DNA of 52,452 bases from Natrinema gari JCM 14663 (GTDB lineage: Archaea > Halobacteriota > Halobacteria > Halobacteriales > Natrialbaceae): the NCBI RefSeq assembly GCF_000337175.1, contig NZ_AOIJ01000061.1, forward strand, positions 98,198 to 150,649. Direction: 5' to 3'. The translations under genes and the position numbers were made by a program. Positions 22,281 through 51,593 of this stretch are shown here, in pieces (the first letter of the stretch is position 1; each line of letters begins with the position of its first letter). The notes beneath the pieces are model-generated. The model ran no database searches. It was given only the letters and a program-made list of their open reading frames with translations, and was not told where the DNA came from.

Positions 22281-22483
22281 ACGCGCGGGTCTCACTAGCT
22301 AACTGTCTTTTTCGAACTCTTCTTCTCGGGCAACACTACTCGCTCTAAAAGGGGATGATCACGGAGCGAGACGACGCGACAACGGCGTCGGTATCGACGA
22401 TGTTTTCGGAAGTGACATCAAGTGAAGACAATCCCCACAATCGTCGATACGGGATATACTGGAGTGCTGGCGAATAATGTAGT

Positions 22484-35052: not shown

Positions 35053-35949
35053 ATGAATGACGCTCGTGTCGTATCGATTGTTCTTAATTGGAATAATTAT
35101 TCGGATTCGAGAGACTGCATCGAATCTCTCAAAGGTATCTCCTACGGAAACCACGACATCGTCGTTGTAGATAACGGCTCTGAGGACGACTCACTGGAGA
35201 ATTTGCAAGACGACTTCCCTGACGCTGAGTTCGTCCCTTTAGACCGGAATCGAGGATTCTCCGGTGGTATGAACGCTGGAATCTCTTGGGCCCTGGAACG
35301 GGATGCAGATTATGTATGGATCTTAAACAACGATGTCATCGTCAAAGACGACCGTATTCTGGACAAACTCCTCCATTACTTCGACGGTCATAGTGTTGGG
35401 GGAGTGACGCCACAGATTCTGGAATATCCAGACACAGACTCTGCTTGGTTTACCATGGGGGAGGTCGATAGACAGTCTGGCCACTCTATCCATCATCAAT
35501 CTCTCCCCGAGGAATTTGGTGAACCCATCGAAAACGACTATATTCCTTTTTGTTGTTCCCTCTTTTCGACAAGAGTATTTGGGGAATATGGTTATTTGCC
35601 CGGCAAATATTTCATTTACCGGGAAGACGTAGCGTTCTCGTACCAACTTGACGAGGACTATCGCTTACTGACTATCCCTGAATGTACGGTATATCATAAA
35701 AGTAGCAGCAGTGGAGGTGGTGACCTGAACCAGACCTTGTCATATTATACGGCCCGAAACCGATGGCTCTTGTTCCACGAGTATTCGGGCGATATGTCCT
35801 TCTCTCGTTTTTTGTGGCAGTATCTCAAGTGGGGTCTTAGCAGGTGTGGGATGATGGTTAAACGGGCTAAACTTGAGTCCTTGTCCGCTTTCGCACATGG
35901 GACGGTAGATGGAATATTAAATAAGACAGGGAAGGGACGATATCCATGA
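35053..35949 (+). CDS. family 2 glycosyltransferase
   Basis: The protein has 298 residues. VSIVLNWNNYSDSRDCIESL and IVVVDNGSEDDSLENL form the nucleotide-binding half of a GT-A fold; WILNNDVIVKDD carries the DxD-equivalent (NND), and KYFIYREDVAFSYQL has the ED pair of the acceptor/base region. SYYTARNRWLLFHEY near residue 230 is typical of rhamnosyl- and related transferases acting on lipid-linked glycans. It heads a five-gene plus-strand operon; its stop overlaps the next ATG by four bases. Confidence 0.92.
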   Translation: MNDARVVSIVLNWNNYSDSRDCIESLKGISYGNHDIVVVDNGSEDDSLENLQDDFPDAEFVPLDRNRGFSGGMNAGISWALERDADYVWILNNDVIVKDDRILDKLLHYFDGHSVGGVTPQILEYPDTDSAWFTMGEVDRQSGHSIHHQSLPEEFGEPIENDYIPFCCSLFSTRVFGEYGYLPGKYFIYREDVAFSYQLDEDYRLLTIPECTVYHKSSSSGGGDLNQTLSYYTARNRWLLFHEYSGDMSFSRFLWQYLKWGLSRCGMMVKRAKLESLSAFAHGTVDGILNKTGKGRYP

Positions 35950-36884
35950 ACGGAAAACAGAGCTTTATCAATATGTTGGAGAAAGCTAAAATCGGCCTCG
36001 CTAACCCCGAACTATTCGGGAGGGCGATAAACAGACTGTACTATACGAGATTAAACAGTAGAGACTACAACACGGCTGGTGAGAACTTTATCGAAAGAGA
36101 CTGGGACAATCTCGTCATTCTAGACGGTTGTCGATACGATACGTTTGAAGAAGAGAGTACGTTGCCTGGGGAACTTTCAACTGTAATTTCTCGGGGTTCA
36201 ATGACGGTGGAGTTTCTCGAAGGTAATATTACCGACGAATCGATGCTGGATACCGTCTATATTACTGGAAACGGCCAATTCTACCACAACTCCGAGGATC
36301 TGAGCGCATCGTTCTACGAGGTCGAAAACGTTTGGTCTGATTCGAGATTCTGGAACGAAGAGAACCACACAGTTCTACCCGAAACAATGGCAGAACGGGG
36401 CCTAGAAGCGGCCGAACAGTACCCGAACAAACGCCTCATCGTCCACTTTATACAGCCACACTACCCATTCGTTGACTCGGAAATCGAGATCGACGACGCC
36501 TTTGATCCGGAGACGCCTGGGTTTTGGATGCGACTGCTACGGGGTAAGGTCGATGTGGACGAAGACGACGTCCGGGAGGCATATCAGAATAATTTGCGAC
36601 TGGCGCTACCGCATGTCGAGACACTCCTCACGGAACTACCTGGGAAAACCGTTGTTACGTCCGACCATGGGAACATGCTCGGTGAGAAAGTGCCTCCGAT
36701 CCCAGTTCGTGACTGGGGTCACCCCCGTGGGATCTACACTGAGGAATTAGTCAAAGTCCCCTGGCTTGAGTATCAAAACGGGGAGCGAAAAGAAATCTCT
36801 GCTGGCTCGTCGGCCCACGAAGGCGCCGAAATAGACGACGAAGATGTCGAAGCTCACCTCAAAGAACTCGGCTACCTTTCCTGA
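35946..36884 (+). CDS. alkaline-phosphatase-fold enzyme, short form 1
   Basis: The protein has 312 residues, with no signal peptide. RDWDNLVILDGCRYDTFEEE near 51-70 provides the first metal aspartate, and a conserved threonine in SMTVEFLEGN near 92 sits where the superfamily nucleophile is expected. RLIVHFIQPHYPF and KTVVTSDHGNMLGE supply the other metal ligands (D-H-G). No C-x-P-x-R sulfatase motif is present. VEAHLKELGYL at the end is shared with related enzymes here. It sits between two glycosyltransferase genes, so I infer transfer or removal of a phosphate- or sulfate-linked group on a glycan. Its stop is one base before the next start. Confidence 0.85.
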   Translation: MNGKQSFINMLEKAKIGLANPELFGRAINRLYYTRLNSRDYNTAGENFIERDWDNLVILDGCRYDTFEEESTLPGELSTVISRGSMTVEFLEGNITDESMLDTVYITGNGQFYHNSEDLSASFYEVENVWSDSRFWNEENHTVLPETMAERGLEAAEQYPNKRLIVHFIQPHYPFVDSEIEIDDAFDPETPGFWMRLLRGKVDVDEDDVREAYQNNLRLALPHVETLLTELPGKTVVTSDHGNMLGEKVPPIPVRDWGHPRGIYTEELVKVPWLEYQNGERKEISAGSSAHEGAEIDDEDVEAHLKELGYLS

Positions 36885-36885
36885 T

Positions 36886-38100
36886 ATGGATATTCTTCAG
36901 GTTGTTCCAAACCGGGTCCATCCGCCAGATACTGGTGGCGACCATCGAAAGCACGGACTGATGGACGCCTTCGTGACCGCTGGTGACAACGTCATACGGT
37001 ACTGTCAAGGCGGGGATCCCTCCGATTATCTCTCGCGTGAGTTGGAAACCTGGATCGATATCGAGTCGGGGTATCGCGAGGTACGAGTCAACCATCTGTT
37101 CCATGACCTAGCGAGCGTCACAGTTCTCTTCGATTTTCCCTACGTATACCTTGGACCAACGCTAAAACGTGTGCCAACGGAGACACTGCTAAACGAACTC
37201 GAAAGGGCAGATGTCGTCTTCGTGGAAGGTCCCTGGCAAGTTTCTGCCGTGGATTCTCTTCTCGACGATGGCCTACTCGTATATTCGAGTCATAACTACG
37301 AACCAGAGCGATTCTCGACGTTTGCCTCCGGTACGTGCGTCCATCGATATTTCTACGAAAAAGTCGAAGCTGCCGAACGGGATGCGGTGTCGAGTGCCGA
37401 TCTGGTAGTCTGTACATCGGAACGTGATATGGAGATATATCGCCGTGAGTTCGAAGATGTCGATATCTACGTCGCTCCGAATGGAACATACGTCGATGAG
37501 GATCCTACGGTCAATACAGACCAGAACCAGCAGATTCGGGATGAACTCGATGTCGGTGACGACGAATCTCTTGGTCTGTTCGTCGGCAGTAAACACACGC
37601 CAAACATCGAGGCCCTTCGTCTGATTCATGACATAGCTTCGGATGTCGACTCGGAGGGGACTCATCTTGTCGCCGTCGGCACTGCCTGTGATGACGTTGA
37701 TAGACAATCTAGTAACGTCGAACAGCTGGGGTTCGTTGAGGACATCGAACCGTATTTCGAGGCGGCAGACTTTGCCGTTCACCCGATGGTATCGGGCGGC
37801 GGAACGAACATCAAGTTATTCGACTACTTCAATTGGGGTCTTCCCGTCATCTCGACGGAATTCGGGGCTCGTGGGCTCGACGTAACGGATAATCACAACA
37901 TCATCATCTCTGAGATAGAGGGGTTCCCGGAGTCGATTCGGCGACTCCATCGGCATCCCGATCTCCGAGAGGACATTGGAAATGCTGCTCGTGAATTTGT
38001 GCGGGAAAAGTACGACTGGCGCGAAATATCCCGAAAACTCCGTGAAAAAATGTTGACATATGTTAATAATTCGGAAAGGGAAGATTCTATAACTGACTAA
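36886..38100 (+). CDS. GT4-type glycosyltransferase
   Basis: The protein has 404 residues from ATG 36886, which lies one base after the stop of the previous gene. ILQVVPNRVHPPDTGGDHRK is the N-terminal donor-side loop with GG; GLFVGSKHTPNIEALRLI and DFAVHPMVSGGGTNIKLFDY form the C-terminal GT-B half, where GGGTNIKLFDYFNWGLPVIS corresponds to the nucleotide-sugar binding region. The classic E-x7-E is altered to a G-x-N-x(2)-K variant seen in many archaeal and bacterial GT4 enzymes. No membrane helix is seen, so it probably acts at the cytosolic face. Confidence 0.92.
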   Translation: MDILQVVPNRVHPPDTGGDHRKHGLMDAFVTAGDNVIRYCQGGDPSDYLSRELETWIDIESGYREVRVNHLFHDLASVTVLFDFPYVYLGPTLKRVPTETLLNELERADVVFVEGPWQVSAVDSLLDDGLLVYSSHNYEPERFSTFASGTCVHRYFYEKVEAAERDAVSSADLVVCTSERDMEIYRREFEDVDIYVAPNGTYVDEDPTVNTDQNQQIRDELDVGDDESLGLFVGSKHTPNIEALRLIHDIASDVDSEGTHLVAVGTACDDVDRQSSNVEQLGFVEDIEPYFEAADFAVHPMVSGGGTNIKLFDYFNWGLPVISTEFGARGLDVTDNHNIIISEIEGFPESIRRLHRHPDLREDIGNAAREFVREKYDWREISRKLREKMLTYVNNSEREDSITD

Positions 38101-38120
38101 GGGGTAGTTTATTCCGTAGA

Positions 38121-39455
38121 ATGACCAAGAATGTCTTACTCATCACAATCGATTCTCTGAGAAAGGACTATCTACCGTTACATGCCGACTGGTCGCATAC
38201 ACCTGCCGCGGAAGAACTCTTTCAGAAAGGCGTCTCCTTCGAATCTGCGTTTGCCACGGGACCGGCGACGGCGGTGTCGTTTCCGGGGATACTGACGGGA
38301 ACCTTACCGCTCTCCTGTGGAGGTCTCGGACCACTCGAGGAATCACGTCCTCGCTTGGCGAGTGAGATGCAGAAAGCCGGGTTCCAAACCGGTGGTTTCC
38401 AGTCGAATCCATTTCTCTCCCATCATTTCAACTACGATGTCGGCTTCGATACCTTCGAGGACTACCAGAATCCGTTGATGGGAATCGCGACGAAGATATT
38501 CCCTCGGGGTATCGAAGTAAATCACCCGAAACTCCGGCGAATAGACGAGAAAATCAACCTTACGAAGCGGATCAAGGATGTCTATCAGCTTTTCCGTGGC
38601 AAACCCCGTCCGTACGTCGGTGCAGATGTAATTACGGACGATTGTATCGACTGGATTGACGACGCCGACTCGAACTTTTTCGCCTGGGCACACTATATGG
38701 ACGTCCATCATCCCTGTTTCCCACCCGTGGAATATCGAAAGGAGTTCGACGCCGCGGACGTCACGCAAGAGGAAGTTTCGGAGTGGTATTCGGCCTTGAT
38801 TCGCTCACCGGACACCCTCAATTCCGAGGAGATAAACGACCTCGAGAGCCTCTACTGTGCTGCAATTAAATACACGGACCATCAGATCGAACGGATTCTC
38901 CGGAAACTGAAAGAGGAAGGAGAGTTCGAAGATACCCTTATTATCTACACGTCTGACCACGGTGAACTCTTCGGTGACTATGGCCTCTATGGAAAGCCCG
39001 AACGGATGTACGACGAACTCCTACAGGTACCATACATTGTTACCAATGGGCCCGAATACCTAGAATCGTCCAAGGACGAGCTGCTGAGCTTGATGGACAC
39101 GATGGGGATTATCTTCGATGCTGTGGGGATCGACCTGCCAGATTCGTACGAAGGAATTCGCCCCGGTCACGAACAGCGGGATCACATCGTCGGCGAGCAT
39201 CACGCCGAGGGGGAGACCGTGATCGGCGTTCGATCGGAAAAATGGCTGTTCGAACTCGACGAGATGCGGGACACGAAACGACTGTTCGAAATCACGGATA
39301 AGGGGATCGACGAGCGGTCGGTAAACCAAGGGGACGACTACGTCCAATCCGTCGCAGAGAAACGGCTCTCGGAACTCGACATCGAAACGGAACTGCTAGA
39401 GGAAGACCTCGAAGAAGACGTGGAGGACCGCCTCGAGGACCTCGGGTACATCTGA
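38121..39455 (+). CDS. alkaline-phosphatase-fold enzyme, long form (sulfatase-like)
   Basis: The protein has 444 residues. VLLITIDSLRKDYLPLHADW at 5-24 has the sulfatase-type N-terminus with metal aspartate. GPATAVSFPGILTG near 47-60 aligns with the C-x-P-x-R-x(4)-TG sulfatase box, but threonine replaces the cysteine and the arginine is missing, so a formylglycine sulfatase mechanism is unlikely; threonine nucleophiles are usual in phosphotransferases of this fold. LIIYTSDHGELFGDYGLYGK supplies the DHG metal site. VEDRLEDLGYI at the end matches the short forms. It may decorate glycans. Confidence 0.87.
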   Translation: MTKNVLLITIDSLRKDYLPLHADWSHTPAAEELFQKGVSFESAFATGPATAVSFPGILTGTLPLSCGGLGPLEESRPRLASEMQKAGFQTGGFQSNPFLSHHFNYDVGFDTFEDYQNPLMGIATKIFPRGIEVNHPKLRRIDEKINLTKRIKDVYQLFRGKPRPYVGADVITDDCIDWIDDADSNFFAWAHYMDVHHPCFPPVEYRKEFDAADVTQEEVSEWYSALIRSPDTLNSEEINDLESLYCAAIKYTDHQIERILRKLKEEGEFEDTLIIYTSDHGELFGDYGLYGKPERMYDELLQVPYIVTNGPEYLESSKDELLSLMDTMGIIFDAVGIDLPDSYEGIRPGHEQRDHIVGEHHAEGETVIGVRSEKWLFELDEMRDTKRLFEITDKGIDERSVNQGDDYVQSVAEKRLSELDIETELLEEDLEEDVEDRLEDLGYI

Positions 39456-39458
39456 AGG

Positions 39459-40622
39459 ATGGTCACGACGCTACAGCTACACCGGAAGAAACCGTATCCA
39501 CCGGGGAGTGGTGCGGACCGAAGGGTGTGGGAGACCGGGAAGAAATTCTCGGAATTCGGCGATACGTGGGTGGCAGCACCGTGGGAAGGTGATTTCCCCC
39601 CGGAAGAAACGGTTACGCCCGTTGATATCGGAACGACGCTACTCACTTCGAAGATTTGCCGGATCTACCTGTGGACCATCGTGACCACTGCTGAAATTGG
39701 GACCCTCAATGAGGTCCTCGTCCGCAAGAGCCGCAGCGCGGTCGAGAGGGCCGATATCGATCCGGATCTGGTGATCAGTGAGTGTCCACAACTCTCGCCT
39801 GCCGGTGCCACCATCGCTCGGAAGTCGGGCGCGGCCTTTTTGATCAACAAACACAACGCGGAGTTTCGCGTCGTCGACCAGTTCCTCGAAGGGAAACCGA
39901 TTCCAGAGTTTCTCTGCGACCGAATTGTCGACAATCACCGTGCATTCGAGCAGCGGATGATCGATCAGGCTGACGCCGTCGTCTTTATGTCTGACGAGGA
40001 CTGTGACCCCTTCGATTTGAGCGACACGGAGTATCGAATCATCCCGAACGGGACCGACTTCTCGGCCTTGGAAGCGTCGGACGATGTCCGGGAATCACTC
40101 GATGTACCTGGCTTAGATGCCTCGAAGCAATCGTGTATCTTCGTTGGTGCGTACGATTACGATCCGAATCGTGATGCGGCCGAACGAATCGCGCAGGAGT
40201 TCGCGCCTGCCTGTCCCAACGTCCAATTTTTGCTGGTCGGACGGAATCCGCCGTCGGTAGACCAGTCTAACATACTTACACCAGGATTTGTAGACGACCT
40301 TGGATCATGGCTCGCATATGCTGATATTGCACTCTGTCCACTTACAATGGGATCCGGAACGAAGCTAAAGATGTTGGACTACATGGCTGCGGGGCTACCG
40401 ATCGTTACTACTCCGGTCGGCAGTCAGGGTCTTGAAATCGAGGATGGAGAAACAGCTCTCGTTAGAAAATCTACTACGGAGATTGTTGAGGCAATTGAGC
40501 AGCTTGCTGCCTCAGAAGAACTTCGAACTCATCTCGGAGAGAATGCACAAGAACTCGGGAAACAGTATGATTGGAGTAATCTCTTCAAAGAATACGACGC
40601 ACTCATAGAGCAGATCGTTTGA
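39459..40622 (+). CDS. GT4-type glycosyltransferase
   Basis: The protein has 387 residues. PPGSGADRRVWETGKKFSEF is the N-terminal donor loop. INKHNAEFRVVDQFL, YRIIPNGTDFSALE and CIFVGAYDYDPNRDAAERI mark the linker and second Rossmann domain, and CPLTMGSGTKLKMLDYMAAG with LPIVTTPVGSQGLE the sugar-nucleotide pocket, as in family 4 transferases of the same K-variant type as the gene at 36886. It is the last gene of the operon (three-base gap from the previous stop) and converges on the next gene. Confidence 0.92.
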   Translation: MVTTLQLHRKKPYPPGSGADRRVWETGKKFSEFGDTWVAAPWEGDFPPEETVTPVDIGTTLLTSKICRIYLWTIVTTAEIGTLNEVLVRKSRSAVERADIDPDLVISECPQLSPAGATIARKSGAAFLINKHNAEFRVVDQFLEGKPIPEFLCDRIVDNHRAFEQRMIDQADAVVFMSDEDCDPFDLSDTEYRIIPNGTDFSALEASDDVRESLDVPGLDASKQSCIFVGAYDYDPNRDAAERIAQEFAPACPNVQFLLVGRNPPSVDQSNILTPGFVDDLGSWLAYADIALCPLTMGSGTKLKMLDYMAAGLPIVTTPVGSQGLEIEDGETALVRKSTTEIVEAIEQLAASEELRTHLGENAQELGKQYDWSNLFKEYDALIEQIV

Positions 40623-40643
40623 GAACCAAGAACGGTCAACTAA

Positions 40644-41615
40644 TTAGTGCCGGAGCAGTCCCTTAATAAAGCCAATCCCCCACGCCCAAAACCATATAGA
40701 AATTAATATTGCGTAGACTGGCAGCTGAGTCCAGCGATTCCGCTTCTCTGATAAATATACACTCATAGAAATGATGCCTAGGCTGCCTAAAGATAGTGTT
40801 CCGGCTAGTACCTTGAGCCAAGATCGAGACTTAACACTCCCGGCGAGAAAAGAGGCTAAGAGAAGGATTATAGAAGACGGGGCGAAATGGAACCACTCAC
40901 CCATCTCTGGATGGAGTTTCGTCGCTTGGGCCCGTCCAATGCCGTAGCGGTACCCCATCTTTGTGTACGATTTCCAGCTGGGTCGCCGATAATGAAGGAC
41001 CTCTGCCTCGGGGGTGTACAGAATCGTGTAGCCCTTCTCTCGAATCCGGTAGTCCATCTCCTCGTCGTCAACCGTGATGAGGTCGTGGTTGAATCCGCCA
41101 ACTTCTTCGATGACTTCTCGTCGATAGACGACATTACAAGTCGGATTATGGTAGATCTCCCGGGTCTCTTCGCCCTCGAATCCGTATCTAGCGCCAGCAC
41201 CGCTTAGCAGGGAGAGGACGTCGCCGACCGATTTTGCGAACGAGGTATCATCGGGGGGAGTAATGTTTGGACCACCAACAGCTGCCACCTCCCCATGGTC
41301 GTCGAAGTGACTGATGAGCGTCGAAAGCCAGTCATCAGGGACAACACAGTCGGCGTCGGTGAACGCGATGAATTCGCTGTTAGACGCTTTCACGCCGAGT
41401 TCGCGTGCGTAACTGATTGTTCCCTTGTCTTCGAAGATCACGTCGCACCCGTACGTCTCGGCGATTTCGACTGTTCGGTCGTTGGAATGCCCGTCGACGA
41501 TAATCGTATTGTAGGTGCCAACGTAATCCAGGGATTCTAACGAGTCTAAGCAGGCTTCGAGCGTGTCTTCGTCATTATACGTGGGTATGACAATTGACGT
41601 ATCGTACTCCGTCAT
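40644..41615 (-). CDS. family 2 glycosyltransferase with C-terminal membrane helices
   Basis: The protein has 323 residues. IVIPTYNDEDTLEACLDSLE and TIIVDGHSNDRTVEIAE begin a GT-A domain; FIAFTDADCVVPDDWL holds the DxD metal site, VYRREVIEEVGGFN the acceptor loop, and VDDEEMDYRIREKGYTI the ED pair. Two or three hydrophobic helices at about 233-300 tether it to the membrane. AglE/AglI-like archaeal enzymes that load dolichol phosphate glycans have this layout. It is transcribed toward the operon on the left. Confidence 0.9.
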   Translation of the reverse strand: MTEYDTSIVIPTYNDEDTLEACLDSLESLDYVGTYNTIIVDGHSNDRTVEIAETYGCDVIFEDKGTISYARELGVKASNSEFIAFTDADCVVPDDWLSTLISHFDDHGEVAAVGGPNITPPDDTSFAKSVGDVLSLLSGAGARYGFEGEETREIYHNPTCNVVYRREVIEEVGGFNHDLITVDDEEMDYRIREKGYTILYTPEAEVLHYRRPSWKSYTKMGYRYGIGRAQATKLHPEMGEWFHFAPSSIILLLASFLAGSVKSRSWLKVLAGTLSLGSLGIISMSVYLSEKRNRWTQLPVYAILISIWFWAWGIGFIKGLLRH

Positions 41616-41652
41616 CGATAGAGATCTGTGATTATGGTAGATTTGCTGCAGC

Positions 41653-41664
41653 GTATATAAAAAG
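41653..41664. promoter_or_regulatory. TATA-like element between divergent genes
   Basis: GTATATAAAAAG lies in the 118-base gap between the divergent GT2 and alkaline-phosphatase-fold genes. It reads as a TATA box for the plus-strand gene (start 41734, leader of about 40 bases) or, less well, the other way. Confidence 0.4.
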
Positions 41665-41733
41665 CTTCACTACTATTGGTGCCTGAAATTGTTCTAGCTT
41701 TACCGAGGTTTTTCAGTTACTAGAATTGTATCC

Positions 41734-42741
41734 ATGATTTTTGTTCCCATTAGGCCTGCCTCTATCCACATTCAAATAACAAGTTTAATCAGCAAAGTAG
41801 AACGACGAGGTGTAACAAGTGGTATTTCAATGGTTGTCAAGGAAATCTTCCAAAATATAGGGCGCCCACGCCTCCTCTGCCAGATGATGAATATCTCATA
41901 TTATTCGTTGAAGAAGCGACTCGGCCAGTTGCCAGAAGGAATTGATGTGATGGAGGAGGACTGGGATAACCTCATTATTCTGGATGCATGCCGATACGAT
42001 GCCTTTGTAACAGCATGGGCGAACCGGAAGACCTTGGACGGGGAATTGAAGCAAGTTCGTTCAAAGGCACCGTTTACGAACGAGTTTTTACGGGAAAACG
42101 TACATCAGCGTGATCTCACCGATACCGTCTATGTTACGTCAAGCCCCCACCTTCATAAAACGAATGACGGAGTATACCAACCGATTGAAGCTAACTTTGC
42201 AGCAGTCGACCATGTATGGAAACACGAGGATCGTTTCGACCCCGGTCTCCTCGTTGATCGGACGAAGAAAGCACTAGAGAAGTATCCTAATAAGCGAATC
42301 ATCGCCCATATGATTCCTCCTCATCAACCATATTTTGGGGAGTCTGCTGATAAACTTGAGGAGATTCTTACGTCATACGAAATTGAGAACTGGAAAGGAA
42401 TGGTCGCCAACGAGATCCCGGTGGATGATGAACTCATCTGGCGGGCATATGCAGAAAATCTTGCTGTCGCTATGAGGCACACTGAAGATTTGGTTGATGT
42501 ATTGGATGGAAAAACAGTTGTAACCGCGGATCACGGCCAGTTGCTAGGTGATCGAGAGTTCCCAATCCCAGTTAAAGGATATGGCCATCCTTCCCTGTAT
42601 GTCGACGAATTATTGAACGTACCATGGCTGGAATGCACGTATAATAAGCGACGAACGATTACAGATCAAGGGGAAAGCGATACCGAGGAGGAAGCAGAGG
42701 AAAAAGCTAAAGAAGCTTTACGTGATTTAGGATACCTATAG
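41734..42741 (+). CDS. alkaline-phosphatase-fold enzyme, short form 2
   Basis: The protein has 335 residues if ATG 41734 is used; ATG 41830 (MVVKEIFQNIG) would remove 32 less typical residues. MEEDWDNLIILDACRYDAFV and APFTNEFLRENV mirror the first short form at 35946, including the threonine. KRIIAHMIPPHQPYFGES and KTVVTADHGQLLGDREF are the same metal-site blocks (D-H-G), and ALRDLGYL ends it. About half the sequence is alike between the two by eye, so they are paralogues. It is followed by transposase relics. Confidence 0.83.
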   Translation: MIFVPIRPASIHIQITSLISKVERRGVTSGISMVVKEIFQNIGRPRLLCQMMNISYYSLKKRLGQLPEGIDVMEEDWDNLIILDACRYDAFVTAWANRKTLDGELKQVRSKAPFTNEFLRENVHQRDLTDTVYVTSSPHLHKTNDGVYQPIEANFAAVDHVWKHEDRFDPGLLVDRTKKALEKYPNKRIIAHMIPPHQPYFGESADKLEEILTSYEIENWKGMVANEIPVDDELIWRAYAENLAVAMRHTEDLVDVLDGKTVVTADHGQLLGDREFPIPVKGYGHPSLYVDELLNVPWLECTYNKRRTITDQGESDTEEEAEEKAKEALRDLGYL

Positions 42742-42823
42742 AAAGAGGGTGTCATAGAACTCTTCTCACACCGTGATAATCGTGTTTCCCGGATTATCTC
42801 CACGTTCGTAGTTGGTGATAGCG
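42742..42823 (-). repeat. transposase-end relic, copy 1
   Basis: About 82 bases match copy 2 (45175-45256) with about six differences, in the same orientation. On the minus strand it encodes LLAITNYERGDNPGNTIITV and a TGA at 42766, the same C-terminus as copy 2, followed by AAGAGTTCTATGACACCCTC, which looks like an element terminus. The protein piece seems to continue upstream to about 42,950 in degraded form. No transposase core is left. Confidence 0.65.
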
Positions 42824-43189
42824 AGCAGAACTTGGCAGACGGACTGATAGGTAGATGGACGGTGTTCAACGTTAGTGATATAGCGGGGCTCAACATTCGT
42901 GGGCGGGTTCTGCAACAGACTGGAACCCCGAAGAATTTTAACTTCCTTCATAGGTGTTGGAAGGAAAGGAACAATCCTGGCATAAATCTAAGAATAAACG
43001 GCGGTGACGGTGTGAGGTTTAGTTTCCCTGATGGGCGGTTTCAGGTATACCATGAGTCCGAGTCACAGCCGGGAATGGTCGGCATCGATGGTTATGAGGT
43101 GGTCGCAGAGGTAGTGGTCTGTTCGCCTTTGGCCTGTGCCGTGGTGACGGAAACGGAGGTGGGGTAGTTAATATAGAAATATGATATGA

Positions 43190-43345
43190 ATGGTCATTTC
43201 GTGGTAGTACCGGACTCCAGCCGTTCAGCCGCATCAGCTTTAGCCTGTCGCGGATGTAGATCGTGCTCTTGTCCAGTTCGTCAGCGAGCGAACCGGTCCT
43301 CCCACAACCGTCACCTAGGAGATCAAAAATGGTGATAGCGTTCGC
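43190..43345 (-). pseudogene. winged-helix regulator remnant
   Basis: Minus-strand reading gives ANAITIFDLLGDGCGRTGSL and ADELDKSTIYIRDRLKLMRL, NGW, the start and recognition helix of a haloarchaeal winged-helix protein. The expected RYYHE that follows appears in another frame, so there is a frameshift at about 43,210. The rest of the gap back to 42,960 shows nothing recognisable. Confidence 0.55.
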
Positions 43346-43392
43346 GAGTGCTGATAGCAAACCTTTTTTGGCTGTTCTGTGCCTGTACTGTT

Positions 43393-44988
43393 ATGGATCG
43401 ACTGTCGAAAACCGCTTATATATTGGCCTTTACCGGGCTCACAGTCGGGATTCTCTGTATTCGTTCACAATCGCCTATGATCGCTCTCACAATTTTGATC
43501 ACGTTTGGAATAATATTTGTTCGCCCCTGGGCAGGGTTGCCAACAACAGCCTTGCAACTGGTTCTTCTATATCCTGGTGCTAATACCGGCTATCTATATG
43601 GTCGCGATTCTGTTGGATTAAGTGCGATAGCTAGAGATATTTCCCACAACGGGTGGGGATTACCGCAACAAGTTGAGTTTGTCTGGGGTGATCCAACAAC
43701 TCCCATCATACACTTTTTAATAGCTGTTGGGTCCAAGGTGACTGGTCTCCGAATTTTCCCCTCTGTCGATGGAGATCCGTTATTTACAACGCTTGTTCCA
43801 ATAATAGCTGTTTGCTTAACTCTCCTGCTTATTGGGCTTCTCATTCGACATCATATATCTACCACGGATATCCCAATAGCAATTCTACCCGCTCTGCTAT
43901 GGATACCATTATTTCAGTTTTATACAGGTACTCGGCGTGGAGCATTAAGCATCGTCTTTGTAACTTTCCTTTTATTCATCATCCTCCGTATCAGGACTGA
44001 CGGCCGGGTATTGTTTGCTGCTCTCCCATTACTGCTTGTCCTCCCTGCAACTCATCACTTAGGGATGGCATTTGCACTTCTCTTAATCGCTTGTCTTGGC
44101 GCTACTATTGTGCGTATACGGCGACTCACACTCGTAGCGGGAGTGTTAGCTTCACTGTGGTTCGCTTGGATCACAACCCGTGCTGTTTTTGCGGTGGTAT
44201 TTGGGATATCGTTGCTTAGTCTGGGGTCATCTGGACCTGATATTATTGCAAATACAGAATCTAGCTTTCTTGATGTGTTAGGACCATTACTGACGCAATC
44301 AATTCTTGTCCTTTTGGCAGTCCTATTCACCTTAGTATTGACCTGGGAATGGAGAAATGGTATCCTCAATCCGGTTGATCTAGGGTTGTACTTTTATTCT
44401 GGCTTCATAGGAATCATAACAGCAATTATGTATGTTGGTGGCGGTTTAGCCTGGACACGGGCGGCAACATTTTTTGTAGTTGTGGCTGGTTGGCTACCGA
44501 TAGCACGGGCACATCAGCTTCTACCCTCTCGAAATCGACTCACTCAAATAGCATCAACAGGACTAATCTGCCTGTTAGTTTTAACTGCAGGAATCCAAGT
44601 TGAACCTCATATTGTCTCTTCTCAAGAGCCAGAATACGACAATGGTGTAGTTGACCAGCGGTTCCACGCAGAAACGTTCGCGGCTGGATACTGGGCAAGA
44701 GACCACGCCACGGGGATGCTTGTGGGAGATGCGAATACAATGGAGGTGACTGTTGCAACTTCCCAAAAAGAAGGAACCATGGCGGCTGACAAATTATTGA
44801 ATTCAGGCTTCGGCAGCAATTATATTGTCATTGTGTCTGGTCGAAACGAACACTTGGTTATGTCCTTAGTGAATGGTGAATGGTATTTAATAACCCCAGA
44901 TAAAAGTTTAGAAACAACGTATCAACAAAAAACCTCGAAGGTGTACACAAATAGTTGGATTGACGGCTATCGTAAGTTAGATGAATGA
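43393..44988 (+). CDS. polytopic membrane protein, GT-C or polymerase-like
   Basis: The protein has 531 residues. About eleven hydrophobic helices fill residues 6-410; two close ones open it (AYILAFTGLTVGILCIRSQS). GYLYGRDSVGLSAIARDI and FVWGDPTTPIIHFLIAVG lie in an early external loop that recalls GT-C enzymes, where an Asp/Glu sits in the first loop. The final 120 residues are soluble. In a glycan locus beside a flippase this could be a polymerase, ligase or GT-C transferase. ATG 43393 (MDRLSKTAYIL) is preferred to a GTG 45 bases upstream. Codon use is noticeably AT-rich. Confidence 0.82.
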   Translation: MDRLSKTAYILAFTGLTVGILCIRSQSPMIALTILITFGIIFVRPWAGLPTTALQLVLLYPGANTGYLYGRDSVGLSAIARDISHNGWGLPQQVEFVWGDPTTPIIHFLIAVGSKVTGLRIFPSVDGDPLFTTLVPIIAVCLTLLLIGLLIRHHISTTDIPIAILPALLWIPLFQFYTGTRRGALSIVFVTFLLFIILRIRTDGRVLFAALPLLLVLPATHHLGMAFALLLIACLGATIVRIRRLTLVAGVLASLWFAWITTRAVFAVVFGISLLSLGSSGPDIIANTESSFLDVLGPLLTQSILVLLAVLFTLVLTWEWRNGILNPVDLGLYFYSGFIGIITAIMYVGGGLAWTRAATFFVVVAGWLPIARAHQLLPSRNRLTQIASTGLICLLVLTAGIQVEPHIVSSQEPEYDNGVVDQRFHAETFAAGYWARDHATGMLVGDANTMEVTVATSQKEGTMAADKLLNSGFGSNYIVIVSGRNEHLVMSLVNGEWYLITPDKSLETTYQQKTSKVYTNSWIDGYRKLDE

Positions 44989-45174
44989 ATTACGACTTAT
45001 CGAAATGAGCGCTGGTTAATTCTATTCGGGTGTTTAATTGGAGTGCCGGAACACATCAATCAGACTAGTATGAGAAGGACAGCAAATACGCAAGTATCCC
45101 TTGTTTGTATTCCTGTCCTGTTGCGATCTTACGTGTCGCCGGGTCTATAGGGTACGTTCCAGATAGAGGTACTA

Positions 45175-45256
45175 AAAGAGGGTATCATAGAACTCTTCTC
45201 ATACCGTGATAATCGTGCTTCCTGGATTGTCTCCACGTTCGTAGTTGGTGATAGCG
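45175..45256 (-). repeat. transposase-end relic, copy 2
   Basis: This is the second copy of the 82-base block at 42742-42823. The minus strand reads AEVYPAQCLRLVVAITNYER and GDNPGSTIITV to a TGA at 45199-45201, then the same terminus-like AGAAGAGTTCTATG. Frames continue to about 45,290 with RTSVRAEV. It is a transposase C-terminus of the same family as copy 1. The remaining 44,989-45,403 gap is AT-rich and otherwise empty. Confidence 0.65.
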
Positions 45257-45370
45257 ACGACAAGGCGGAGACACTGAGCGGGGTACACCTCCGCTCGTAC
45301 GCTCGTGCGAAATCATAAGACTTCGAGATTGAGCGCCTCCTCGAACTTAACTCGATAGGAATATAGCAAA

Positions 45371-45381
45371 GTATTATTATT
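45371..45381 (+). promoter_or_regulatory. TATA-like box upstream of GT2
   Basis: GTATTATTATT ends 22 bases before the ATG at 45404, a leaderless-type spacing. The area is generally AT-rich, so confidence is modest. Confidence 0.4.
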
Positions 45382-45403
45382 AGGTGGGATTTCTAACGAG
45401 ATA

Positions 45404-46408
45404 ATGAACGTCTCCGTTGCCCTATGCACGTATAACGGAGAGGAATATATTGAAGAACAAATAGAATCTATTCTAGACCAAACATATGATATTAGTGAGG
45501 TAGTTGTCTTTGACGACTCATCTACTGATTCTACTATCAGTAAAATAAATAAATATGCAAACAAATACCCACAGCTATTTGAGGTACATACGAACGATGA
45601 AAATGTCGGCGTCGAAGAGAATTTTGCTAGATGCATAAAACACTGTAAAGGCGACGCAATCGCCATTAGTGATCAAGACGATATTTGGCACGAAGAGAAG
45701 ATAGAGAGAGAAGTAGAGGCACTAACTCGAGAAGAAGTTTCCTTGGTATTTCATAATTCGACTATCGTAACTAGTTCGCTTGAACAGAAAGGCGATCTTT
45801 GGTCTACCGTCCAACAGCGAGTACCGAAAAACGGGAATCAACGACATTTGATTACTGCCCTCACCAAATACAATTTTGTACAGGGATGTACAATATTATT
45901 TGATGAAAGTCTCAAAAGATATCTTGAATCCATCCCCTCACAGTGGGAATATGACTATTACATTGCCGTTGTAGCTGCCCTGACGGGGGGACTCCATGCC
46001 ATTGACGATGAATTATTACTTTACCGTCAGCATGAGCAGCAAGCGATAGGATCGCCCGAGGAGAATTCACTCGAGCGTGTGAGAAAATGGACACAGAACT
46101 CGCTGGCGAGGAACCGCCAATCATACCATGAGAAGGAAAGTCGTAAATGGAAGAATGTTCTCGATGCAATTGATCGTATCGACAGCCCATCCCCAGATAA
46201 AAATAAAATAATTGAGATGAAATGTGATTTCGAGAGACAGCGATCAGAGGTATATGATCCTGATGTGGGGATCCGGCAGCGGATCAAGACAGTTGTCGAC
46301 TGCTGGAATGAGAAGGGGTACCAAAGGTATACTGACGCCCCTTCGTTGCATTCAATAAAGGATTTATTTGCGTCTTTTCTAGTATCTGTATATTCTAATT
46401 TGAAGTAA
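45404..46408 (+). CDS. family 2 glycosyltransferase, rhamnosyltransferase-like
   Basis: The protein has 334 residues. VSVALCTYNGEEYIEEQIES and EVVVFDDSSTDSTISKI start the GT-A fold; DAIAISDQDDIWHEEKIERE carries the S-D-Q-D-D-I-W motif characteristic of WcaA/rhamnosyltransferase-type enzymes such as RfbF-like proteins. GGLHAIDDELLLYRQHEQQA follows with the Y-R-x-H block. The neighbouring dTDP-rhamnose genes fit a rhamnose donor, though specificity is inferred. The stop is two bases before the flippase ATG. Confidence 0.9.
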   Translation: MNVSVALCTYNGEEYIEEQIESILDQTYDISEVVVFDDSSTDSTISKINKYANKYPQLFEVHTNDENVGVEENFARCIKHCKGDAIAISDQDDIWHEEKIEREVEALTREEVSLVFHNSTIVTSSLEQKGDLWSTVQQRVPKNGNQRHLITALTKYNFVQGCTILFDESLKRYLESIPSQWEYDYYIAVVAALTGGLHAIDDELLLYRQHEQQAIGSPEENSLERVRKWTQNSLARNRQSYHEKESRKWKNVLDAIDRIDSPSPDKNKIIEMKCDFERQRSEVYDPDVGIRQRIKTVVDCWNEKGYQRYTDAPSLHSIKDLFASFLVSVYSNLK

Positions 46409-46410
46409 CA

Positions 46411-47829
46411 ATGAATATCTCTCGGTCTAGTTTGCGGCTGTCCATAGCCCGATTCTCGAGCAGTATTATCGCATTTGCAAGTATTACGTATTTTGCTCAG
46501 AACTTAGGTGCCTCTGCGCTGGGGACGTATTTTCTGTTCCAGACATCAACTGCTTTACTCTCTCTTTGTTCAGATGTCGGCGTAAAAGGTGCAATTGAAA
46601 AACGCATCAGCGAAGGTGAGGACCAATCGTACTATTTGACCACCGGCACAGCTATCAACAGTGTATTATTATTGGTAATATCATCAATTTTATTTCTATT
46701 TAGAGCAGAAGTTGATGATTTCCTTGGTGCAGAACTGACTCTTCTTCTAATTATAGCGCTAGTGGTCCGGGCAGCCTTTCAGTTGACGATCAGAATTCTC
46801 AATGGAGAGCTTCGCGTTGGAGAAACCGCCTCTCTCCTAGCGTTGCGTCAGGTAGTTTGGGCCTCTGTTGGAATATTGCTATACCATCTTGGTCAAGGAG
46901 TCAACTCGCTTGTATACGGACTTATCATAAGCTATGCAGCAGTTTTTGTGATCGGGTTCAACAGACGGAACACGCAATTCGGCGGTTTTTCCCTAACTCA
47001 CGGTCGATCACTGTTCGATTATTCAAAGTACCATTTCGTTTCCGTTTCCGGGTCACAGATATACAGTTGGATGGATGTTGCGATTATTGGCATTATCCTC
47101 ACACAGATGCACGTGGGAGCCTACGAATCCGCTTGGAGAGTAACTGGTGTCGTGATGCTGGTTAGTGGTTCGATTGCTACGACCATCTTTCCCCAGATCA
47201 GCAAGTGGGACGCGGAAGGAAATACCGAGAAGATCGAAGAACTGATTCCGAACGGTATCGCTTGGTCACTGCTCCTGGTTGTCCCGGCATTTTTTGGTGC
47301 ACTCCTGCTGTCCGAAGACATACTGCTGTATCTGTTTGGGGAAGAGTTCACAATCGCTTGGATAGCGTTGATTATTTTATTAGCAGACAAGATTGTTGGC
47401 GCAGTACAGAAGATAATCGGTCGTTCGCTATCCGCGATTAATCATCCAGGTCTATCAGCGCGAGCCTCCATAGTGTCTATAATATTGAATATAATTATGA
47501 ATATCATTTTCATCTATCAGTTCGGTATCGTCGGTGCTGCGGTCGCAACCTTTCTCTCATCTTCGATTGGTGATCTCTTGCATTGGTTGTATCTCTCCCG
47601 GTTCATCGACGTCAGATTCCCTACTCGGCGGTTCTCTTGGATCGTCCTTTCCTCAGTTGTGATGATACTAGTCCTGTTCGCGATAAGTCGGACGATTCTG
47701 CCAGTAACTTCCCTTTTGAACTTATTCTCCACAGTCGGTTTTGGAGCGATCATATATATGGGTATGATAATGTTGTACCGCCCTTTCCGCTCCGAGATCT
47801 TCAGTTATGTCTCCGATATCCGTGGTTGA
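46411..47829 (+). CDS. Wzx-type polysaccharide flippase
   Basis: The protein has 472 residues and about twelve to fourteen membrane helices, typical of MATE/MVF flippases. YFAQNLGASALGTYFLFQT is the conserved first loop; LADKIVGAVQKIIGRSLSAI and ARASIVSIILNIIMNIIFI lie in the C-terminal half. It would move a lipid-linked glycan across the membrane to the outside. It directly follows a GT2 gene, two bases apart, so they form one operon. Confidence 0.93.
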   Translation: MNISRSSLRLSIARFSSSIIAFASITYFAQNLGASALGTYFLFQTSTALLSLCSDVGVKGAIEKRISEGEDQSYYLTTGTAINSVLLLVISSILFLFRAEVDDFLGAELTLLLIIALVVRAAFQLTIRILNGELRVGETASLLALRQVVWASVGILLYHLGQGVNSLVYGLIISYAAVFVIGFNRRNTQFGGFSLTHGRSLFDYSKYHFVSVSGSQIYSWMDVAIIGIILTQMHVGAYESAWRVTGVVMLVSGSIATTIFPQISKWDAEGNTEKIEELIPNGIAWSLLLVVPAFFGALLLSEDILLYLFGEEFTIAWIALIILLADKIVGAVQKIIGRSLSAINHPGLSARASIVSIILNIIMNIIFIYQFGIVGAAVATFLSSSIGDLLHWLYLSRFIDVRFPTRRFSWIVLSSVVMILVLFAISRTILPVTSLLNLFSTVGFGAIIYMGMIMLYRPFRSEIFSYVSDIRG

Positions 47830-47997: not shown

Positions 47998-48468
47998 ATG
48001 TCACAAGTTCATGACGTAGAAGTCCGCGATCTCCGAGTAAACGCCGACGAGCGCGGGCATCTCGTCGAAGTATTCCGTGATGACTGGGACGAATACGACC
48101 CAGAACCTTCGATGTCCTACTATTCGATGACATACCCAGGTATTACTCGTGCTTGGCACAAGCACAACAGAGGTCAGATTGATCACTTCGTTTGCCCAAA
48201 GGGACGAATCAAAGTCGGCATCTACGACGACCGTGAAGACTCCCCCACACAGGGCGAACTCGACACGTTCGTTGTCGGCGAACACGATCAGAAGGTCATC
48301 CGCATCCCGGGCGACTGCTGGCATGGCTTCAAGGCTATCGGCGACGAACCGGCGTTCCTCATCAACTTCCCAACGAACCTCTACGAATACGAGGATCCCG
48401 ATGAAGAGCGACTCCCGCACGACACAGACAAAATACCTTTAGACTGGGACGAAGAACCGAGCGGATGA
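47998..48468 (+). CDS. rfbC: dTDP-4-dehydrorhamnose 3,5-epimerase-like protein
   Basis: The protein has 156 residues, a bit short of RmlC's usual 180. NADERGHLVEVFRDDWDEYD, SYYSMTYPGITRAWHKHNRG and QIDHFVCPKGRIKVGIYDDR follow the RmlC jelly-roll order; the RAWHKHNRGQ histidine corresponds to the catalytic base of RGLHFQ. PGDCWHGFKAIGDEPAFLIN and TNLYEYEDPDEERLPHDTDK complete it. The dTDP-rhamnose genes next to it support the 3,5-epimerase role. The protein starts the block, three bases before rfbA. Confidence 0.85.
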   Translation: MSQVHDVEVRDLRVNADERGHLVEVFRDDWDEYDPEPSMSYYSMTYPGITRAWHKHNRGQIDHFVCPKGRIKVGIYDDREDSPTQGELDTFVVGEHDQKVIRIPGDCWHGFKAIGDEPAFLINFPTNLYEYEDPDEERLPHDTDKIPLDWDEEPSG

Positions 48469-48471
48469 CAG

Positions 48472-49545
48472 ATGAAAGGCGTACTTCTCTCGGGTGGGAC
48501 GGGCTCTCGGCTTCGTCCCATCACCCACACTGGTCCGAAGCAGCTTGTCCCGGTCGCAAATAAGCCAGTCCTCGAATATGCAATCGAGGATCTAAAAGAG
48601 GCCGACATCACCGAAATCGGCGTTATTCTCGGGAACAAAGGCCGCGAAGAGATCCAAGAACTTCTTGGGGATGGTTCGAAGTACGGTGTGGATATCACCT
48701 ACATCGTCCAAGGTAACCCGCTCGGACTCGCACATGCAGCTGGATGTGCCCGAGACTTCGTCGGTGACGATGACTTCGTAATGTACCTCGGAGATAACAT
48801 CCTGAAATCCGGCGTCACCGATCTCGTTGAGAATTTCGAGGCAGGTGACTACAGGGCAGGAATTGCCCTCCAAGAGGTGGATAATCCACAGGCCTTCGGC
48901 ATCGCGGATGTTGATGAGGAGGGCAACGTCACGGAGCTCATCGAGAAACCCGACGAGCCGCCGACAAATCTCGCGCTAATCGGGATGTATGTCTTCTCAC
49001 CTGCGGTCTTCAACGCCATCGACGATCTCGAACCGTCGTGGCGTGGCGAGCTCGAAATCACAGATGCTATCCAGGATCTTCTCGAAGACGACTACGAAAT
49101 CGACTCTCACGTCGTTACTGGCTGGTGGAAGGACACCGGAAAACCCGTGGATATTCTGGAAGCAAACCGTCTTGTGCTCGAAGATAAGGATCTGAACACA
49201 GCAGGCGTTGTTGAGGACGGCGCGGAGACCGACGGCCGCATCGAACTCGCGGACTCTGCAGTTATCGAAGAGGGTGCTGTTGTACGGGGACCCGTCTCCA
49301 TTGCGGCGAACACGACTATCAAGAGCGGGACGTACGTTGGTCCGTATACGTCAATTGGCGCGAACTCCACATTGGAGGATATCCACATCGAGAATAGCGT
49401 CGTCATCGGCGACTCTGAAATCACCGCCAACGGCCGTATTGCCGATAGCTTACTCGGACGCAACGCCAACGTCGAGAGCGCGGACGACCTCCTTCCAGAG
49501 GGCCGCCGACTCGTCGTCGGTGAGAACTCCCAACTCAAACTCTAA
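48472..49545 (+). CDS. rfbA: glucose-1-phosphate thymidylyltransferase, long archaeal form
   Basis: The protein has 357 residues. GGTGSRLRPITHTGPKQLVP and VANKP at 8-33 form the nucleotidyltransferase signature (G-G-x-G-x-R-L-x-P, P-K-x-L). LGDNIL holds the metal aspartate, and LIEKPDEPPTNLALIGMYVF and GWWKDTGKP the sugar-binding loop. The last 120 residues carry a left-handed beta-helix with hexad strands around AVIEEGAVVRGPVSIAANTT, as in archaeal RmlA relatives of about 355 residues. It makes dTDP-glucose, the first step. Confidence 0.93.
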   Translation: MKGVLLSGGTGSRLRPITHTGPKQLVPVANKPVLEYAIEDLKEADITEIGVILGNKGREEIQELLGDGSKYGVDITYIVQGNPLGLAHAAGCARDFVGDDDFVMYLGDNILKSGVTDLVENFEAGDYRAGIALQEVDNPQAFGIADVDEEGNVTELIEKPDEPPTNLALIGMYVFSPAVFNAIDDLEPSWRGELEITDAIQDLLEDDYEIDSHVVTGWWKDTGKPVDILEANRLVLEDKDLNTAGVVEDGAETDGRIELADSAVIEEGAVVRGPVSIAANTTIKSGTYVGPYTSIGANSTLEDIHIENSVVIGDSEITANGRIADSLLGRNANVESADDLLPEGRRLVVGENSQLKL

Positions 49546-49547
49546 CG

Positions 49548-49727
49548 ATGCGCATCATCACTCACCTCTGTCCGGCCTGTGGCACCGTCGTTGCAGCGAA
49601 TGAACTCGAAAATAACCGCGTGATGAAGTGCCCGGGACTCGGCTGTCAGGAAGTTCTCCGCTTCGAGGACCTCCCCGAGGACGCACGCGAACACTTCCTC
49701 AAAAACCGGAACCGCTACCAGACCTAA
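49548..49727 (+). CDS. 59-residue zinc-ribbon protein
   Basis: A frame of 60 codons begins at ATG 49548, two bases after the rfbA stop. HLCPACGTVV and MKCPGLGCQEVLRF give two C-x2-C/C-x4-C knuckles suited to one zinc. The end, DAREHFLKNRNRYQT, is helical and basic. Its TAA at 49725-49727 overlaps the convergent rfbD TAG (49724-49726). It is too short for usual automated thresholds but has good spacing and codon character. The role may be regulatory or structural in the locus; no family is recognised. Confidence 0.8.
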   Translation: MRIITHLCPACGTVVAANELENNRVMKCPGLGCQEVLRFEDLPEDAREHFLKNRNRYQT

Positions 49728-50614
49728 CGCAACGCACCCCAGACAGTTTCGACATCCTCGCGCAACGTTGGCTGGGGACGACCAAGCTCTGATTCCACCT
49801 TTTCAACGTCAAGGCAGCTGTGCGTCGGTCGCGTCGCATCTCGTTCTACATCGTCTATCGATCCCTCACTAAGCAATTCCTCGCTGCTGTCGATGCGATC
49901 AGCAATCACTTCCCCAAACTCGTAAGGGGTGACGCACGACGAACACGTGATATGGAAGAGACCAGTGGCATCCTGTTCAACCAGATCAAGCAGTATTTTG
50001 GCGGCCTGGCCAGCACGCGTTGGTGTCACCCATTGATCCGTGAATAGAGGTATGTCTTGATCGGACTGGAGTTGATCACGAACCCACGCCGGAAACCCCG
50101 TGAGATCGTTGCTACTGCAATGGATACCCCAAACAAACGAGAGCCGAGCCACGAGCGCGTCTGTAGTTTCTTCGATGACCGCCTGCTCGCCAGCTAGCTT
50201 CGACTCGCCGTACACCTGTACTGCATTCGTATCTGCCGACTCACTATACGGCTCACGTTCCGTCCCATCGAAGACATAGTCCGTCGAAATGTGAACGAAT
50301 TCAACGCCGTTAGCGTCACAGTGAGCGGCCAGCCCACCTGGTGCGTCGCCGTTGAGTACATAGGCTTGTTCCGGATTCGTTTCGCAGCTATCGACATCCG
50401 TCATCGCGGCACAGTTGATGACCACGTCTGGGTCGTGTTCGGTAAGGATGTCGCCAAACGAATCGTATTCTCGGAGATCGAACTGCTTGAGTGGAATGTG
50501 GAACGTCGGTTGCGTTGAGTGATAAGTACCATAAACGTCCCACCCGCGTTGTTGACTTGCACGTACGACGTTACTGCCAAGGAGACCGTTCGCACCGACG
50601 ACGAGGAGTTGCAT
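49724..50614 (-). CDS. rfbD: dTDP-4-dehydrorhamnose reductase
   Basis: The protein has 296 residues. GANGLLGSNVVRASQQRGWD is the Rossmann G-x(2)-G-x(2)-G motif. STDYVFDGTEREPYSE and QVYGESKLAGEQAVIEE hold the catalytic Tyr and Lys (Y-G-E-S-K). It reduces the 4-keto group, the last step to dTDP-L-rhamnose. It runs opposite to the other three genes, and ends at the zinc-ribbon gene. Divergent start to rfbB lies 52 bases away. Confidence 0.93.
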   Translation of the reverse strand: MQLLVVGANGLLGSNVVRASQQRGWDVYGTYHSTQPTFHIPLKQFDLREYDSFGDILTEHDPDVVINCAAMTDVDSCETNPEQAYVLNGDAPGGLAAHCDANGVEFVHISTDYVFDGTEREPYSESADTNAVQVYGESKLAGEQAVIEETTDALVARLSFVWGIHCSSNDLTGFPAWVRDQLQSDQDIPLFTDQWVTPTRAGQAAKILLDLVEQDATGLFHITCSSCVTPYEFGEVIADRIDSSEELLSEGSIDDVERDATRPTHSCLDVEKVESELGRPQPTLREDVETVWGALR

Positions 50615-50666: not shown

Positions 50667-51593
50667 ATGCGAATTCTCGTCACTGGCGGTGCTGGATTCA
50701 TCGGATCAAACTTCGTCCACTACGTCCTTGACGAACACGAGAACGACGAAGTGATCACACTGGACGCGTTGACGTATGCGGGTTCGAAGGATAACCTCGA
50801 TGGCGTTCTTGACGACCCACGCCACGAGTTCGTCGAAGGTGACATACGCGACCGCGATCTCGTCACGGACCTCGTTTCCGACGTCGATGCAATCGTCAAC
50901 TTCGCGGCGGAATCTCACGTAGACCGGTCAATCGAAGGTGCGAAACCCTTCGTCACGACGAACGTCCAGGGCACCCAGACCCTCCTCGACGCCGCCAACG
51001 AGGCAAATATCGAGTGCTTCCTCCAGATCTCGACCGACGAGGTGTACGGCCAGATCCTCGACGGAAAGTTCTCCGAGGACGACCCACTCAATCCCCGGAA
51101 CCCCTATTCGGCGACGAAGGCAGGTGCAGACCTCCTCGCACAGAGCTTCCAGACGACTCACGACCTTCCTGTCCTCATTACGCGGACGTGCAATAACTTC
51201 GGTCCCCGTCAGCACCCCGAGAAGCTCATCCCGAAATTCATCCAGAACGCGGCCGCCGGTGAGACCCTTCCTATCTACGGCGATGGGTCGAACGTCCGCG
51301 AGTGGATCTACGTAGAGGATAACTGCCGAGCACTCGACATGGTCCTCCGGAAGGGGGAAGTAGGAGAGATTTATAACATCGGGAGCCACGCGGAGAAGAC
51401 GAACTTTGAAGTCACCGAAGCGATTCTGGATGCCATCGGGGCAGACGATGCCCTGATCGAGTTCGTCGAGGATCGTGCCGGCCACGACCAGCGCTACGCA
51501 CTCGAAACCGAGAAAATCGAATCCCTCGGCTGGGAAACGGAATACACGTTCGAAGAGGGTCTCGAACGAACCGTCGAGTACTACTTGGACTGA
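50667..51593 (+). CDS. rfbB: dTDP-glucose 4,6-dehydratase
   Basis: The protein has 308 residues. VTGGAGFIGSNFVHYVLDEH is the NAD-binding G-x(2)-G-x(2)-G; NFAAESHVDRSIEG near 78-91 is the RmlB signature, STDEVYGQI holds the catalytic Thr-Asp-Glu, and NPYSATKAGADLL the Tyr-Lys. RTCNNFGPRQHPEKLIPKFI follows. It converts dTDP-glucose to the 4-keto-6-deoxy sugar, the second step. The stop overlaps the next ATG by one base. Confidence 0.95.
   Translation: MRILVTGGAGFIGSNFVHYVLDEHENDEVITLDALTYAGSKDNLDGVLDDPRHEFVEGDIRDRDLVTDLVSDVDAIVNFAAESHVDRSIEGAKPFVTTNVQGTQTLLDAANEANIECFLQISTDEVYGQILDGKFSEDDPLNPRNPYSATKAGADLLAQSFQTTHDLPVLITRTCNNFGPRQHPEKLIPKFIQNAAAGETLPIYGDGSNVREWIYVEDNCRALDMVLRKGEVGEIYNIGSHAEKTNFEVTEAILDAIGADDALIEFVEDRAGHDQRYALETEKIESLGWETEYTFEEGLERTVEYYLD

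Follow-up and report, generated by a model that had tools for sequence, protein, structure and literature searches.

Threonine-type alkaline phosphatase superfamily proteins interleaved with glycosyltransferases in a Natrinema gari glycan island: candidate sulfotransferases of a lipid-linked glycan

In the haloarchaeon Natrinema gari JCM 14663, three alkaline phosphatase (AP) superfamily proteins are encoded among glycosyltransferase (GT) genes, and our analysis suggests, with a probability of about 50%, that they add sulfate, in the cytosol, to a lipid-linked, rhamnose-containing glycan. The genes lie in a 52,452-nucleotide stretch of DNA (the window; contig NZ_AOIJ01000061.1, positions 98,198 to 150,649); the GT/AP arrangement is real, well-formed, and widespread, and the system is not exotic. 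In the mechanism that we propose, the three proteins would be cytosolic, metal-dependent AP-superfamily transferases employing a threonine nucleophile, which would decorate the glycan during its assembly by the neighbouring GTs on the cytosolic side of the membrane, before a flippase turns it outward. The group added would most likely be sulfate, as with Agl30 and Agl31 of Halobacterium salinarum; the metal-bound threonine would first accept a sulfo group from a donor and then pass it on to the hydroxyl of a sugar. The AP proteins are named below by the first coordinate of their genes, and the island is laid out as follows.

35053–35949, plus strand: GT2 glycosyltransferase, first gene of the likely operon (PF00535, E 2.5e-19)
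35946–36884, plus strand: short AP-fold enzyme, 312 aa (alignment invariants, AF2 model, fold matches)
36886–38100, plus strand: GT4 glycosyltransferase; the open reading frame opens at 36844 (PF13692, E 1.4e-14)
38121–39455, plus strand: long AP-fold enzyme, 444 aa (PF00884, E 6.8e-44)
39459–40622, plus strand: GT4 glycosyltransferase (PF13692, E 2e-19)
40644–41615, minus strand: GT2 glycosyltransferase (PF00535, E 4.5e-29)
41734–42741, plus strand: third AP-fold enzyme, 335 aa (BLASTP and alignment to 35946; no Pfam match)
43348–44988, plus strand: polytopic membrane protein, 546 aa, without Pfam or NCBIfam match
45404–46408, plus strand: GT2 glycosyltransferase (PF00535, E 8.1e-28)
46411–47829, plus strand: Wzx/MATE-type flippase (PF13440, E 2.6e-19)
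47998–48468, plus strand: probable dTDP-4-dehydrorhamnose 3,5-epimerase, RmlC-like
48472–49545, plus strand: probable glucose-1-phosphate thymidylyltransferase, RmlA-like
49724–50614, minus strand: probable dTDP-4-dehydrorhamnose reductase, RmlD-like
50667–51593, plus strand: probable dTDP-glucose 4,6-dehydratase, RmlB-like
(the last four from sequence reading and synteny with an annotated Haladaptatus cluster)

The open reading frames and Pfam matches bear out the order GT2, short AP, GT4, long AP, GT4, GT2, third AP that had been proposed in an earlier, sequence-only reading of this DNA. All five genes between 35053 and 40622 are on the plus strand and tightly packed, neighbours overlapping or lying only a few bases apart, and thus likely form one operon; the first GT2 gene and the short AP gene overlap by 4 bases, and the ATG at 36886, just past the short AP stop codon, is the more probable start of the first GT4 gene than 36844. 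The third AP gene begins 118 bases past the minus-strand GT2 gene and, because it sits beyond this opposite-strand gene, is a transcription unit of its own; on both the strand and the separate unit the earlier reading was silent. Its proposal that the interleaving reflects decoration of a lipid-linked glycan is still the best reading of the locus, and the island also holds a flippase gene and dTDP-rhamnose genes. The gene of the 546 aa membrane protein follows the third AP gene and precedes the GT2/flippase pair; it is the sole copy among the compared loci and could encode a GT-C-type transferase or an oligosaccharide ligase of the island. The GC content of the island (35053–47829) is 48%, as against ~65% at the start of the window, as would fit a glycan locus exchanged horizontally.

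All three proteins are assigned to the AP superfamily: 35946 by its structural model and invariant residues, 38121 by PF00884, and 41734 by its identity to 35946 (36% over 323 columns by BLASTP and alignment, catalytic residues in common). In 35946, which scores just below the PF00884 cut-off (23.5 versus 25 bits), the predicted active-site residues are D60, T87 at the nucleophile column, H167, H172, the pair D240-H241, and H259; in 38121 they are D11, T50 at the nucleophile column, H196, the pair D279-H280, and K292. None of the three reaches an NCBIfam cut-off or matches the classical PAPS sulfotransferase domains PF00685 and PF13469 in Pfam. Hydropathy revealed no transmembrane segment in any of them, the maximal values in a 19-residue window being 0.72 (35946), 1.50, and 1.31 against the usual threshold of 1.6.

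The threonine that had been read at the nucleophile position holds up in alignments of relatives from haloarchaeal loci: 79 of the 80 long proteins and all 71 aligned short ones have threonine or serine there; D279 and H280 of 38121 and D60, D240, H241, and H259 of 35946 are essentially invariant in the same relatives. Conservation of the nucleophile and metal ligands argues that the proteins are most likely catalytic. That they instead serve the glycan pathway as non-catalytic AP-fold scaffolds or regulators is very improbable: the same residues persist even in compact relatives from IMG/VR viral contigs, at ~23–34% identity. The only observation in favor of the scaffold explanation is VNG1063H, a further AP protein of the Halobacterium cluster that encodes Agl30 and Agl31, for which no effect was detected under the conditions tested (PMC11980604). 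The C-terminal tails reported for the three proteins could be read directly (LKELGYLS in 35946, LEDLGYI in 38121, RDLGYL in 41734), and the LGY element is kept in 79/80 long and 70/73 short relatives. As a special signal the tail was set aside, since distant relatives encoded on viral contigs end in it too.

None of the three proteins contains C-x-P-x-R, already reported missing, or C-x-A-x-R; with threonine in place of a formylglycine-type cysteine at the nucleophile column, the three fall outside the type I formylglycine sulfatases. The absence of this cysteine, together with threonine or serine in nearly all relatives, also weakens the explanation that the proteins are hydrolases, which would trim or edit glycan intermediates or sugar nucleotides at their sulfate or phosphodiester groups. 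In favor of hydrolysis are the catalytic promiscuity of AP-superfamily enzymes and, in 38121, PF00884 and similarity to the phosphodiesterase family; nonetheless, up to three or more AP proteins per biosynthetic island suit stepwise addition better than repeated removal, the Agl30/Agl31 precedent is one of transfer, and we regard hydrolysis as unlikely. K292 of 38121 lies twelve residues past the DH pair and is common to a 7-member clade (SH-aLRT 100 in a quick tree), with 67 other long proteins bearing histidine at this position. The D-H-(+12)-K spacing recalls phosphonate monoester hydrolases, and we take K292 to reflect the usage of these enzymes and of sulfatases, not that of EptA.

An AF2 model of 35946 (pLDDT 85.9, pTM 0.84) clearly adopts an AP fold. 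Its top structural match (VIA-align) is EptA (5fgn; Z 16.1, 3.1 Å over 209 residues), and other phosphoethanolamine transferases of the EptA/MCR group follow at Z ~14–16. Sulfatases and phosphonate hydrolases reach Z 14.9, within ~1–2 Z of the EptA/MCR group, with 6HHM (Z 14.8) and 5G2U (Z 14.0) among the matches. The modelled fold is thus slightly nearer to the threonine-type transferases but does not decide whether sulfate or phosphate is moved. The short-family profile found nothing significant among PDB sequences (best E 0.11), and the fold assignment of 38121 rests on Pfam, its AF2 model, built from 5 sequences, having a pLDDT of 47.

These matches bring forward the main alternative to sulfate transfer, in which the proteins would take phosphoethanolamine, phosphoglycerol, or a similar phospho-substituent from a phospholipid or nucleotide donor and attach it to the lipid-linked glycan, in the manner of EptA and LtaS, which act extracellularly in bacteria. 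Besides the fold ranking, the threonine nucleophile with a downstream histidine (H259) is EptA-like, some relatives are annotated as ‘LTA synthase family’, and canonical genes for PAPS synthesis are missing from the window genome. EptA and LtaS work outside the cell on lipid donors, and against the alternative stand the missing transmembrane domain of the window proteins, the narrow lead over the sulfatases, and K292 of 38121, which is unlike EptA. Of the features that define EptA/LtaS-type enzymes, a threonine nucleophile in an AP fold is present (T87 and T50, with the fold modelled for 35946 only) and the N-terminal transmembrane domain is not. The sole characterized haloarchaeal relatives, moreover, move sulfate (PMC11980604). 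We hold phospho-transfer to be possible but doubtful.

The precedent for sulfate comes from the aglB cluster of Hbt. salinarum, in which Zaretsky et al. (2025, PMC11980604) described VNG1056C (Agl30) and VNG1057C (Agl31) as AP-superfamily N-glycan sulfotransferases acting on sugars 3 and 4 of an N-linked tetrasaccharide. The evidence is genetic: deletion lowers sulfation of the tetrasaccharide, and their expression in Hfx. volcanii leads to added sulfate (PMC11980604). VNG1056C is membrane-associated, lacks an InterPro family, and has 5G2U as its best structural match, as does VNG1063H, while VNG1057C is soluble, belongs to the arylsulfatase family, and is nearest to 6HHM (PMC11980604). Both structures recur among the matches of the 35946 model. 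The sequence-only reading knew of no description of such decoration for these archaea, a view that the Agl30/Agl31 report does not support.

Our Halobacterium comparisons used the type strain DSM 3754 as a proxy for NRC-1; the type strain differs from NRC-1 and R1 in a GT-rich region (PMC10264941), and its proteins are not equated with VNG1056C and VNG1057C. The type-strain cluster (locus L141) comprises an AP, a GT2, a GT4, a long AP beside a short AP, and a GT2 gene, with three AP genes in all; the long AP is soluble, and the short AP beside it has a hydrophobic stretch near its N terminus, starting at ~residue 24. This cluster matches the published description in kind and may consist of other genes. 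Its AP proteins carry serine or threonine at the nucleophile column, so threonine alone is no argument against sulfate transfer. Accordingly, the earlier view that the window proteins would be phosphotransferases or phosphodiesterases rather than sulfatases stands insofar as they lack the motif cysteine of formylglycine sulfatases; its step from threonine to phospho-transfer does not stand beside Agl30 and Agl31.

The short AP proteins of the window share 25–33% identity, and the invariant catalytic residues, with the type-strain short AP proteins. In phylogenetic trees, the former belong to a clade of 57 rows (100/99) and the latter to a separate clade of 9 rows (100/99), and the long AP of the window falls within the separate K292 clade and thus apart from both long proteins of the type-strain cluster. 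Given these separate clades, the function of the window proteins may differ from that of Agl30 and Agl31, and sulfate is to be read as a reasoned default for them. Three points count against it, namely the EptA/MCR proteins as nearest folds, the lack of canonical PAPS genes, and VNG1063H without a detected role. The chemistry nevertheless most likely belongs with the recently recognized AP-fold glycan sulfotransferases.

Relatives of the short AP were detected in 174 and of the long AP in 183 of 194 Halobacteria genomes; a phylum-wide profile search added 10 genomes with short-family members from outside the order to which N. gari belongs. Short relatives are mostly annotated as ‘hypothetical’, and a very common, unnamed haloarchaeal family now stands beside one experimentally studied case. 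Within 20 kb, GT genes occurred at 34 of 40 short-AP loci (Fisher p 8e-6) and at all 20 long-AP loci (p 4e-7), compared with 5 of 20 control positions, and two or more AP genes at 22/40 short-AP (p 8e-6) and 15/20 long-AP loci, compared with none of the 20 controls; these counts derive from home-made HMMs and top-scoring hits that include some near-identical genomes, and the controls are round coordinates in genomes of the same sample. The co-occurrence with GT genes that the sequence-only reading had put forward as a check is therefore evident, and GT/AP interleaving emerges as a general architecture of surface-glycan islands in haloarchaea. A closely similar island on a Haladaptatus plasmid runs DUF1616, FtsX, GT2, GT2, GT1, GT4, long AP (60% identical to the window long AP), and two more AP genes, and continues with flippase, rmlC-like, rmlA-like, SDR, and rfbB genes; both islands thus end in flippase and rhamnose genes.

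Several further observations concern the surroundings of these families. DUF1616-like and FtsX/ABC-like genes lie upstream in the window (21165–25724), similar to the flank of the Haladaptatus island, which suggests a conserved site for surface-glycan islands. The same genome harbors a second AP-rich island (contig C39, 1781–10020) that encodes three PF00884-type AP proteins, a fourth, AP-like protein, and a probable flippase; in the tree, one of the AP proteins groups with the long AP of the Halobacterium cluster. Twenty IMG/VR contigs encode short-AP relatives, mostly compact (about 220–350 aa), which keep the threonine site in nearly all cases and mostly lack the LGY tail; one contig (L182) has two copies.

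A sulfate-transfer reading calls attention to the donor. Among 194 Halobacteria, APS kinase (PF01583) was detected in 9 and ATP sulfurylase (PF01747) in 4; the window genome has neither. In Hbt. salinarum, PF01747 gave no match, and a 49-residue N-terminal match to PF01583 (24.9 bits) was rejected as an APS kinase. None of the 12 genomes searched reached the CysD (TIGR02039) cut-off, and all 12 held weak PAPS-reductase-family-like matches; a divergent sulfate-activating enzyme in haloarchaea is possible. Since Hbt. salinarum sulfates its glycans without full-length PAPS genes, their absence is no argument against sulfation. The gap instead poses a testable question, the canonical ATP sulfurylase and APS kinase genes being missing in nearly all haloarchaea sampled, the glycan-sulfating Hbt. 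salinarum included. We tentatively entertain a broader, speculative scenario in which haloarchaea would sulfate surface glycans through threonine/serine AP-fold transferases that use a non-canonical donor, in a chemistry without relation to the PAPS sulfotransferase fold, and in which a large repertoire that differs by clade would specify the sugar modified; the donor may be APS, a sulfolipid, or PAPS from unrecognized enzymes.

Set against known systems, the window proteins share with EptA/MCR and LtaS the AP fold, threonine nucleophile, and metal site, as seen in 35946, and differ from them in their predicted cytosolic location. With formylglycine sulfatases and phosphonate monoester hydrolases, 38121 has PF00884 in common, with threonine replacing formylglycine. 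The low-salt N-glycosylation cluster Agl5–Agl15 of Hfx. volcanii resembles the window by gene content, with GTs, rhamnose genes, and a flippase in common, and includes Agl7, which takes part in the sulfation of a lipid-linked sugar (PMC3871713). The likeness to Agl30 and Agl31 lies in two AP types, lacking a recognized sulfotransferase domain, within a haloarchaeal GT cluster, and the type-strain cluster proteins end in the LGY tail as the window proteins do; unlike the Agl30/Agl31 cluster, the window cluster is a flippase/dTDP-rhamnose island.
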